From positions 1 to 31,688 of the forward strand of contig CAMMKE010000005.1 of the NCBI GenBank assembly GCA_946497375.1: DNA of 31,688 nucleotides, written 5' to 3'. Position 1 is the first letter of the stretch, and each line of letters begins with the position of its first letter. Source of the DNA: an uncultured Mycoplasmatota bacterium. Its GTDB lineage: Bacteria > Bacillota_I > Bacilli_A > RF39 > UBA660. Shown piece after piece: positions 3,024-29,517 of the stretch. The notes beneath the pieces are model-generated. The model had not been told where the DNA came from. It saw only the letters and a program-made list of their open reading frames with translations, and made no database searches. Position numbers and translations under genes: made by a program.

Positions 3024-3614
3024 CCACCCTGCACTTAAAGTACAGGGTTTGGAGTGAGGACTGAAACTCCTTCTATGCTAAAGCATACTATTGCCATCAT
3101 TTACAAATATATCTTCTATTCCATCCTTTTGATTTTCAATATATTCTTCTATAGTTTGTCTAGTTACTTGTCCTACACTTCTACAAAAATATCCTGTCGC
3201 CCACATATGTTGTCCCCAAAATTGCTTCCTTAATTTTGGAAATTCCTCTTGTAACTTTTTAGAACTTCTCCCTTTTAGATATTGCATTATTTGAGCTACT
3301 GACAAGGTTGGTGGTATACTTAACAACAAATGTACATGTTCTGGCTGTATATTACCTCTTATTATTGTTATTCCCTTTGCCGAACAACCTTGCATCAGTA
3401 GCTCTTTTAATCTATACGCAATTTTGTATGTTAATATTTTCTTTCTATATTTTGTTATCCATACTACATGTATTTGCAAATCATACTGTGTGTGGGCTCC
3501 TTTTTGCATCTTTCTCACCTCTGTTTTATCTTACTACTTTTTTTTCACAAAGGCTAGTCCTCAAAGGATTTATGTGACTGAAAGTCAATGGATATTATCC
3601 GCCAGTGCCTAGCA
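3024..3614 (-). mobile_element. IS200/IS605-family element (IS200 type, tnpA only)
   Basis: A single TnpA transposase gene is bounded by imperfect palindromes of the kind used by this family. At the 3' end CCCTGCACTT pairs with AAGTACAGGG (3027-3047, one mismatch). At the 5' end there are a TGACT-GAA-AGTCA hairpin (about 3575-3587) and a TCCT-CAAA-GGA hairpin. It has no long terminal inverted repeats and no evident target duplication, as expected for HUH transposition. It splits a sir2 gene: removing about 3024-3612 would join GLYNM to IQKYDK in frame. Exact ends cannot be fixed without an empty site. Confidence 0.8.
3078..3509 (-). CDS. tnpA: IS200-type transposase TnpA (Y1 HUH nuclease)
   Basis: Y1 transposase that cuts and joins single-stranded DNA at element ends. 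Visible motifs: IHVVWITKYRKKIL near the N-terminus, the HUH metal-binding pair in PEHVHLLLSIPP (about residue 60), a conserved LKGRSS segment, FWGQHMWATGYFCRSVG, and the C-terminal helix RQTIEEYIENQ with the nucleophilic Tyr. At about 143 residues it is full length for the family. The start at 3509 (MQKGAHTQYDL) is preferred because GAGGTG lies seven bases upstream; an in-frame GTG at 3518 overlaps that site. No tnpB lies next to it. It appears intact, so the element may be active. Confidence 0.93.
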   Translation of the reverse strand: MQKGAHTQYDLQIHVVWITKYRKKILTYKIAYRLKELLMQGCSAKGITIIRGNIQPEHVHLLLSIPPTLSVAQIMQYLKGRSSKKLQEEFPKLRKQFWGQHMWATGYFCRSVGQVTRQTIEEYIENQKDGIEDIFVNDGNSML

Positions 3615-11360: not shown

Positions 11361-11475
11361 ATATACTCTCCCCTCATGTTGATACTTATTATACACTTTT
11401 TTTAATTAAAAGCAAGAAAATTTCTAATTCTTTGTTATGTTTATATAGCATTATTCTTATAATTAAAACAAATAA

Positions 11476-11512
11476 AAAGAAGTCTAAACTAGACAATAGA
11501 CTTCTTTTTATC
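11476..11512 (-). terminator. Terminator overlapping the end of the radical-SAM gene
   Basis: AAAAAGAAGTCTA and TAGACTTCTTTTT form a perfect 13-bp inverted repeat, with the T run included in the 3' arm on the minus strand. The radical-SAM stop codon lies inside the loop, so its last codons (KKKSIV) are made from terminator sequence. Confidence 0.8.
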
Positions 11513-17857: not shown

Positions 17858-17931
17858 TTTTTAGTTAGTAGATAAAACTATTCATGTTTTTCTTTATCAT
17901 CTATTTTATTACTTATAGCTTTTTTATTATC

Positions 17932-17958
17932 CAACATGTCGGAATTTCCGACATGTTG
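17932..17958. repeat. Perfect palindrome 1 (13-bp arms) within a rhuM-like fragment
   Basis: CAACATGTCGGAA, one central base, TTCCGACATGTTG. On the minus strand it encodes STCRKFRHV, a RhuM-type motif, with the central base being the third position of the Lys AAA codon. No T run follows on either strand, so it is not an ordinary terminator. Confidence 0.9.
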
Positions 17959-18020
17959 AGTTCTTATCAAGCTTTTTCACAATAGACTTTTTATATGATT
18001 TTTTCTCTATTGGCATTGGC

Positions 18021-18048
18021 ACCGTTTTGCCGACGTTGGCAAAACGGT
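18021..18048. repeat. Perfect palindrome 2 (11-bp arms, 6-base loop) within the dinD-like remnant
   Basis: ACCGTTTTGCC, six bases, GGCAAAACGGT. On the minus strand it encodes DRFANVGKTV of the DinD-like motif. GC content is far above the surrounding sequence. No T run. Confidence 0.9.
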
Positions 18049-18206
18049 CACTTACATTAATGTTACTAACATTACATGATATTTTTGATTTATTAATAAT
18101 CTTTTTAAAATTTCTCCATCTAGAATATCCTAAAGCTGTCATTAGTTATCTTACTTTCCAATATTTAGTTAATATCTTATCAATATTTCTAATATCATTG
18201 AAATGA

Positions 18207-18557
18207 TTATCTATACTTATTTAAACTAATTTTTAAAGTTTGACTAAGTATTTCCTTTATAACAATATTATTTAGATTTTTCTTACATATGCTATCAAAT
18301 AAAATGGTATTTTGTGAACAATGTTAACATTCCTATTTTCTTCTTTTTGAACTGTCAAGAATTTCTTGACAGTTGAAATTCTCACTTACCTCCCCTTCAT
18401 TAAAAATATTTTTTATATGCGAACTAATATTATGTTTACTTGTATCATATAAATCAACCATTTGTTGTTTGTTTTATCTTCTAATTTTACATCTATCTTT
18501 GTCTTACCGTCCTCTAATTGATATATTATAATGTTATTTTTCTTAAGGGAATGAATA
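18207..18557 (-). pseudogene. rhuM-family pseudogene
   Basis: Minus strand in three frames: NNIIIYQLEDGKTKIDVKLEDKT, then a shift to QQMVDLYDTSKHNISSHIK and NIFNEGEVSEN, then a shift (one extra T) to STVKKFLTVQKEENRNVN and IPFYLIAYVRKNL, ending SQTLKISLNKYR at TAA 18207-18209. RhuM proteins read IIIYQTEDGKTKIEVRLEDETVWLTQxQMAELF-TTKxNIxxHIKNIFEEGEL-ENSTVKKFLTVQxEGNR, then the FYNLDMII and WATQxLKEYL blocks. The start codon, the VWLTQ stretch and the C-terminal half are lost. Palindrome 3 sits exactly on STVKKFLTV and is intact although the surrounding gene is broken. Confidence 0.75.
18350..18374. repeat. Perfect palindrome 3 (12-bp arms) within the rhuM pseudogene
   Basis: AACTGTCAAGAA, one central base, TTCTTGACAGTT. 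On the minus strand it encodes TVKKFLTV, and the central base is again the third position of the Lys AAA codon. It occupies the same position in the protein motif as palindrome 1 with different arm sequence. No T run follows. Confidence 0.9.
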
Positions 18558-28431: not shown

Positions 28432-29517
28432 CTAAACTAAACTTTGCAAATTATAGTGTAACCTTAATCCTTCTAATAATATGTTTAAACTAGCATTTAT
28501 ATCTCTATCATTATGTGATCCACATTTTGGACAATCATATTCTCTTATACTTAAATCTTTTAACTTACTATTCTTATATCCACAATGACTACATATCTGA
28601 CTACTTGGATAATAAGTATTTATCTTATAATAAATCTTTTCTTTTATCTTACACTTCCACTCTATTAGAGAACATAATGTACTAACAGCAGCATCTGATA
28701 GACTTTTATTAAATGCTTTTTTCTTATCTTTAAACATATCTTTTACTTTTAAACTCTCTGTCACTATAATATCATGGTCATTAACTATTTTATTTGCAAT
28801 GGCATTTAAATAATTCTTACTTCCTTTTTCTCTTCTTGATAACTCTTTTTGTAATCTTTTTATTCTCTTTTCAAACTTCATTAATATTTTCTCATTCCTA
28901 TATTTAATACCATCACTTGTTATTACTAAATCTTTTATTCCTAAGTCTATTTCTACTATACTAGTAGGTGTAACTTTCTCTATTAAGATATCTTCTACTA
29001 CTACAACGCTTACATAGTATTTATTTGTTACATCTTCTATTATAGTTGCATTTAATATCTTTCCTTCTATTTTATCTTTAGTTCTAAAACCTCTTATTTT
29101 AACTTTTCCTAGTTTAGGTAATTTTATATTTCTAGTTAGTAAATCTACTTTTATATTACTATATTCTTTTTCTTTATAAGTACCTCTTACACAACTAGTT
29201 CTATAAGACTGCTTATTAAATCTATTTTTATATTTAGGATACCCTCTTTTTTAAGCATAATAATCATTAAAAGCTTTACATAAATCATCTACAGCAGAGC
29301 ATAATACACTTGAATCTACTTCTTTTAGAAATTCATTTTCTTCTTTTAATTTAGGTAAATCTTTATGTAAATCAAATCTATTTATACCATTATTATCTTT
29401 TAAATAATTAAGATAATGATTATATACAAAACGTTTACATCCTAAAGTTTTATTAATTAATATTTTTTGGTCATCTGTTGGATATAACCTAAATTTATAT
29501 GCTTTATATATTTCCAT
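28432..29517 (-). pseudogene. tnpB: TnpB RNA-guided nuclease with one in-frame stop
   Basis: From ATG 29517: MEIYKAYKFRLYPTDDQK, then KTLGCKRFVYNHYL, to AFNDYYA followed by TAA (29251-29253). The same frame then stays open: KRGYPKYKNRFNKQSYRTSC, EIDLGIKDLVITSDG (RuvC-I Asp), VTESLKVKDMFKDKKKAFNKSL (RuvC-II Glu), a zinc ribbon CSHCGYKN then CPKCG, and HNDRDINASLNIL (RuvC-III Asp), ending at 28432 after about 361 codons. All catalytic residues and Cys pairs are present, so the only visible lesion is the TAA in an A-rich run. It would make an N-terminal fragment of 88 residues; an internal ATG at 28881 cannot supply the RuvC-I Asp. Recently inactivated or a sequencing error. Confidence 0.85.

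Follow-up and report, generated by a model that had tools for sequence, protein, structure and literature searches.

Genes of the RhuM family carry, within the codons of their own DNA-binding domain, a 25-bp dyad whose base sequence follows the recognition helix of the encoded protein, and the pattern suggests that this palindrome is very probably the site bound by the gene's own product. Our computations gave a conserved DNA symmetry, an association between helix residues and bases, and no second site nearby that stood out. This is also a clear example in which the amino-acid sequence of a protein appears to be set by the DNA signal that it reads.

Palindromes and gene relics in the window

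The starting point was a pair of palindromes in the window, i.e. the whole 31,688-nucleotide stretch of DNA that was analysed. Palindrome 1 (17932-17958, minus strand) is a 27-bp dyad with 13-bp perfect arms, a 1-nt centre and the core TCGG, coding STCRKFRHV, and palindrome 3 (18350-18374, minus strand) is a 25-bp dyad with 12-bp perfect arms, a 1-nt centre and the core CAAG, coding STVKKFLTV. In both, the centre is the third base of a Lys AAA codon on the minus strand; the preliminary description was accurate on the coordinates, the coded motifs and the centre. It had also placed the palindromes inside rhuM genes, and the motifs are indeed of the rhuM type, but both lie in broken relics and neither gene is intact. 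Both palindromes that it counted in the stretch are real, but a third was left unused: palindrome 2 (18021-18048, minus strand; 11-bp arms, 6-nt loop), which codes DRFANVGKTV within a dinD relic and occupies the place in the motif at which DinD-family genes carry their dyad.

Palindrome 3 belongs to a decayed rhuM relic (18326-18547, minus strand) recovered by tblastn with the RhuM proteins of L023 and L002. This relic corresponds to the N-terminal part with the helix-turn-helix; in place of an intact RhuM reading frame there are just N-terminal fragments interrupted by stops and frameshifts. Palindrome 1 lies in a short rhuM-like fragment (KLDKNSTCRKFRHVG; 17932-17979, upper bound approximate, minus strand), assigned by matching it by eye to RhuM motifs. 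The decayed, Bro-N-like dinD relic (18014-18211, minus strand) was identified by tblastn with the DinD of L116 (45% identity, E 1.3e-15) and has one internal stop. It shares a single open frame (ORF 17927-18142) with the fragment of palindrome 1, and this ORF matched the Bro-N profile with 16.1 bits (E 0.017), under the Pfam cut-off of 25.6. In the nearest compared genome, G001, a broken rhuM gene (L003) is found at the syntenic place, next to relatives of the two genes that neighbour the window rhuM relic, and the relic can be aligned to it. The core CAAG accompanies helices of the KQNIS type; the helix reads KQNISSH in L003 and KHNISSH in the window relic, and palindrome 3 is predicted to be the operator of the lost RhuM. 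The core TCGG of palindrome 1 accompanies helices ending in E-H, the helix part being missing from that relic.

With loops of up to 12 nt, the window contains eight hairpins with arms of at least 10 bp, three of them within the ~440 bp holding the palindromes. Twenty order-2 Markov simulations of the window with the same loop limit gave means of 0.85 (10-bp arms), 0.2 (11-bp) and 0.1 (12-bp) hairpins per window, and none longer. Elsewhere in the window, an inverted repeat with 15-bp arms and a 10-nt loop (11472-11511) overlaps the end of a frame that we take to be radical-SAM-like; a frame at 3078-3518 is presumably an IS200-type transposase, and frames at 28432-29517 appear to us to be pieces of a TnpB-like protein.

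DNA symmetry within intact rhuM genes

The rhuM genes compared came from three sources: the order to which G001 belongs, viral contigs, and 80 named genome contigs representing many phyla. Of the 212 distinct frames obtained, we anchored 205, taking as reference the third base of the codon that lies eight codons downstream of the Leu in the EL motif. RhuM corresponds to Pfam family PF13310 (Virulence_RhuM), for which L165 scored 372.5 bits against a curated cut-off of 33.7; the rhuM genes from the order of G001 also exceeded this cut-off. At least 8 of 10 pairs of the 25-bp dyad were found at the same codon in 191 of the 205 anchored genes. Complementarity amounted to 70% at offset 1 from the dyad centre, 78% at offset 2 and 80-95% at offsets 3-12, and dropped to 47% at offset 13 and 34% at offset 14, so the 25-bp dyad is sharply bounded. 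Fewer than 8 of 10 pairs were seen in 14 anchored genes, some of which have a shorter dyad in another frame, and a perfect dyad is absent from L001, an intact rhuM gene of the nearest genome.

The rhuM register pairs third with third codon positions, so that synonymous choice becomes visible. We redrew codons 200 times from each gene's own synonymous codons. The synonymous third-third pairs were complementary in 566 of 615 cases, against 236.7 expected, and 175 of the 205 genes had all three such pairs complementary, whereas the redraws gave 13.1 such genes on average and never more than 23. The contrast is weaker for single genes: in several (e.g. L010, L019, L025 and L034) 20 codon shuffles matched or beat the observed arm, since the amino-acid motif itself permits symmetry. 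The case therefore rests on pooling, and the pooled test shows a symmetry that protein constraint does not explain. The comparison of intact rhuM genes with synonymous codon controls, suggested in the preliminary description, thus came out strongly in favour of selection for nucleic-acid symmetry when the genes are taken as a whole, and symmetry beyond protein constraint is confirmed in intact genes of RhuM and of other families.

These counts also bear on the idea that the recognition helix and the wing strand touch each other in the fold and covary at the protein level, the palindrome being a by-product of the codons. Helix and strand residues do covary, but the complementarity of synonymous third positions goes far beyond the redraws, and we consider this explanation extremely improbable. 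Another possibility is that the symmetry is selected as an RNA stem acting on translation or stability. Compensated changes are compatible with any stem, and the innermost two pairs of the stem are the least kept. However, the mismatches at offsets 3-12 included at least 38 G.T/T.G and at least 52 A.C/C.A (counting at most the six commonest per offset), i.e. no G-U excess on the coding strand among the commonest mismatches listed. An mRNA hairpin is very improbable when the recognition helix, considered below, is also taken into account.

Corresponding dyads in related families

Dyads with 10 or more of the 11 pairs were also found near the anchor in 37 of 44 ORF6N genes (1.1% in synonymous redraws), 24 of 33 DinD genes (4.2%) and 10 of 14 Bro-N-type genes (2.1%); the same scan gave 101 of 111 for RhuM (7.6%). 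The remaining seven ORF6N, nine DinD and four Bro-N-type genes had fewer pairs. The dyad centre falls in codon register 0 in ORF6N (3 of 37 at register 1), 2.5 in DinD, 1 in the Bro-N type and 2 in RhuM, and these different codon positions in the four families indicate that the dyad is not one inherited codon string. KilA-N genes have a 28-bp version, with at least 10 of 11 pairs in 11 of 20 genes, many of the 20 being near-identical. The dinD gene of Escherichia coli K-12 has a 24-bp dyad in which 10 of the 11 pairs at offsets 2-12 are complementary, so that the idea is testable at once in that laboratory strain. Three Rha-type genes, the only ones in the dataset (L360, L361 and L362), have 10/11 dyads, and the Rha family may belong to the same group. 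In two ORF6N genes (L089 and L106), dyads with 19-bp arms were observed within NLKSQxGTSS, extending beyond the 25 bp apparently sufficient for binding.

Template switching is a known mechanism for the formation of quasi-palindromes, and by copying one arm onto the other it could perfect a palindrome that has no function. Palindromes 1 and 3, which are perfect even as relics, would fit such a process. However, perfect dyads were found in just 11 of 632 other long frames lacking a family motif in the fetched loci, and from a reading of their sequences five of these 11 are probably missed family members; furthermore, the codon register at the equivalent place differs among several families. Mutational self-perfection is accordingly a highly improbable source of the dyads, and it does not predict the link between core and helix described below, the helix being coded some 55-70 nt from the dyad centre.

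The dyad core follows the recognition helix

Protein positions are counted back from the conserved His of the recognition helix (H-1, H-2 and so on) and bases as offsets from the dyad centre. With few exceptions, the core of the rhuM dyad follows the helix: VRTINEH occurs with CCGG, VRTINYH with CCGA, xxTINEH with TCGG and xxTINYH with TCGA. Among genes with Thr at H-4, those with Arg at H-5 had CCGG in 17 of 17 cases when H-1 was Glu and CCGA in 16 of 19 when it was not; in those with another residue at H-5, the corresponding cores were TCGG (13 of 16) and TCGA (29 of 35). At offset 6, Arg or Gln at H-5 mostly goes with C, and Asn, Pro and other residues mostly with T. At offset 3, in genes with Thr at H-4, Glu at H-1 goes with G, and Tyr, Phe, Asp and Ala mostly with A. 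KNNIS helices pair with TAAG and KQNIS helices with CAAG, apart from one gene with CAAA.

Relatedness was addressed with 91 disjoint pairs of rhuM genes closest to each other in the C-terminal part, a test that falls short of a full phylogenetic model. It ranked 307 protein columns, after exclusion of 12 coded by or beside the dyad. The best of the 307 columns was H-4 for offset 4 (18/20 versus 1/71, p 7e-16), H-5 for offset 6 (27/28 versus 13/63, p 3e-12) and H-1 for offset 3 (28/30 versus 13/61, p 2e-11); H-4 was also best for offset 5, and H-6 and H-2 for offset 7. At offset 8, none of the five leading columns in this test lay N-terminal of the His, and the plain ranking was headed by a column distant from the helix. 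The wing residue beside the dyad led the columns for offsets 10-11, an association that linkage may explain, this residue adjoining the palindrome. Bases of the dyad could also be predicted from distant relatives. With training only on genes less than 50% identical in the C-terminal part and with the residue present in the training set, the correct base was obtained in 153 of 174 genes at offset 3 (majority baseline 93), 159 of 186 at offset 4 (41), 124 of 129 at offset 6 (102) and 184 of 185 at offset 10 (89); training below 60% identity gave 145 of 169 at offset 6 (105).

The helix rule also holds in RhuM subfamilies whose dyad lies in a different frame (STITEH with CGG; DRTVITRH with TGCA). 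The same core recurs in frames that translate it into different amino acids, and a rule kept across frames is not required by a protein-level cause. A comparable code was obtained for 36 ORF6N genes, in which INE with KNN or RNN goes with TCGAA, INE or LKE with RRN or KRN goes with TCGCA, xLxQ with KRN or KRH goes with TCACA, TINQ with KRN goes with TCCCA and, in one gene, INQ with KNN goes with TCAAA. DinD cores also vary with the residues around the DinD W..F helix.

The preliminary description had proposed a cruciform, a dyad operator or an RNA hairpin. The operator is favoured, since the sequence of the dyad, and not just its symmetry, tracks the recognition helix; neither a cruciform nor a hairpin predicts this, and a stem does not need bases that follow the helix.

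Structural model and proposed mechanism

An AlphaFold2 model of the L151 RhuM (36 sequences, pLDDT 74.9, pTM 0.54, medium confidence) was a winged helix, with helices at residues 54-61 and 65-77 and strands at 87-93 and 99-105. In this model the recognition helix is 65-77, the conserved His is residue 71, and the palindrome codes approximately residues 86-93, strand 87-93 being the first wing strand. Fold matches to the model were weak, the top one being DdrC, a DNA-binding protein.

RhuM, ORF6N, DinD and Bro-N-type proteins have a helix-turn-helix near the N-terminus, which takes the form of a winged helix in the RhuM model. In that model the bases of the palindrome code for the first wing strand, with the centre ~54 nt (18 codons) after the codon of the conserved His. 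A predicted dimer would bind physically and read the two half-sites, residues 1, 2, 4, 5 and 6 before the His going with bases 3-7 from the centre and a residue at the wing turn with bases 10-11. A change in specificity would then require that a base change in one half of the dyad be matched in the other and, because the site lies in the reading frame, that amino acids change in matched fashion too (R..R, K..L, A..A, S..E, E..S, V..T and C..H). If the palindrome is an operator, the DNA-reading helix and the protein stretch coded by the palindrome must evolve together.

The bound protein could block RNA polymerase within its own gene, such a roadblock amounting to repression by negative autoregulation. 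An in-frame operator would need no promoter of its own and would give rhuM feedback wherever the gene lands, which favours negative autoregulation by roadblock. Given that the site is real, we consider negative autoregulation its likeliest use and, from the arrangement of the genes, a reasonably probable one. If the operator reading is right, sequence would be sufficient to obtain binding sites for RhuM, DinD, ORF6N and KilA-N, whatever their function, and a natural protein-to-DNA recognition code could be read from about 200 rhuM genes.

Further copies of the site and gene neighbourhoods

An autorepressor normally has copies of its site on the promoter side, but none is conspicuous for RhuM: when the flanks of 182 genes were scanned with each gene's own dyad, the best additional match was no better than those for dyads of other genes, used as decoys. 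The one site tested genome-wide, that of L002, occurred once in the G001 genome with up to three mismatches allowed, in its own gene. Clear promoter-side copies were found in three of the 39 ORF6N genes searched (L075, L081 and L083, from viral contigs, two of them near-identical). In these, another dyad sharing the core of the first lies ~57 nt upstream of the start codon and looks like an ordinary autoregulatory operator. In L075 (1669-1745), the ORF6N gene with its promoter-side copy also has an imperfect extra copy of the core just before the main dyad. L129, L292 and L300 (DinD and Bro-N-type) each have a single upstream dyad with a matching core, which could be a relic of another gene. 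Two intergenic rhuM-type palindromes with the cores of other rhuM genes lie beside an intact rhuM in L024 (1359-1413) and are probably relics.

The neighbours of rhuM were checked with Pfam in six loci, partly chosen for restriction-modification (R-M)-like frames and thus not a survey. R-M neighbours were found in five of the six: hsdM in L162 and L196, hsdS in L173, L196 and L201, hsdR in L201 and a Res-like subunit in L163. The rhuM gene of L209 has a HipA-like neighbour, and several of these R-M or HipA-like neighbours adjoin or overlap rhuM.

The same site might serve another use, in which an effector protein acting in defence, as a toxin or against phages would mark or titrate self through its own gene, as aba does for BstA. 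We regard this main alternative as rather unlikely, although several lines of evidence agree with it. The accessible part of the BstA report describes a KilA-N-like protein suppressed by a short DNA element of its own locus, in cognate pairs (PMC8585504), and RhuM has been proposed to be a toxin domain that occurs in R-M loci and in frequent fusions to DOC (PMC3710099). The absence of a second site standing out near rhuM and the single genomic occurrence of the L002 site would also fit. However, bstA of BTP1 has no dyad above the synonymous redraws (the best, at codon 160, has 9/11 pairs, equal to the maximum of 9 in the redraws), and the ORF6N genes with a promoter-side copy resemble ordinary autoregulation. 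Autoregulation and self-recognition cannot be distinguished from sequence alone. A broader proposal, that the whole superfamily of phage-type regulators (RhuM, ORF6N, DinD, Bro-N, KilA-N and perhaps Rha) carries a self-address telling its own DNA from other DNA, is doubtful at present. If it were true, each gene would hold the one DNA word that its protein reads, this would constitute a general cognate self-immunity in restriction-modification islands and prophages, and BstA-aba would be a differently built special case.

Comparison with known systems

Autoregulated helix-turn-helix repressors have a dyad operator in the promoter, read by their own helix. The rhuM dyad resembles theirs in following the protein's own helix but sits in frame, where it shapes the protein sequence, and whereas their operators lie in promoters, no promoter copy stands out for RhuM. 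The lambdoid O protein has binding sites inside its own coding sequence, according to the portion of the source available (PMC7466680), and is in this respect, as a DNA-binding protein with sites in its own gene, like the proposed rhuM system. However, as described there, oriLambda consists of several iterons beside an AT-rich region and serves to start replication (PMC7466680), whereas rhuM has a single dyad in the DNA-binding domain; a family-wide helix-to-base code is not described for O in that portion (PMC7466680), and rhuM has one.

BstA, in turn, is KilA-N-like and has a cognate DNA element, aba, in its own locus (PMC8585504), an arrangement that rhuM-type genes would share. Unlike the rhuM dyad, aba is there reported to be 63 bp long, to overlap the start of the gene and to need CCCGCC direct repeats (PMC8585504); in bstA of BTP1 we found these repeats at -28 and +28 of the start. 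In the literature searched, an intragenic operator has not been described for Virulence_RhuM (PF13310). What appears to be new, as far as the portions of that literature available to us go, is the combination of a single dyad in the DNA-binding domain's own codons, its presence in several families and a legible code. The dyad is kept across several families and, for rhuM, across many phyla.
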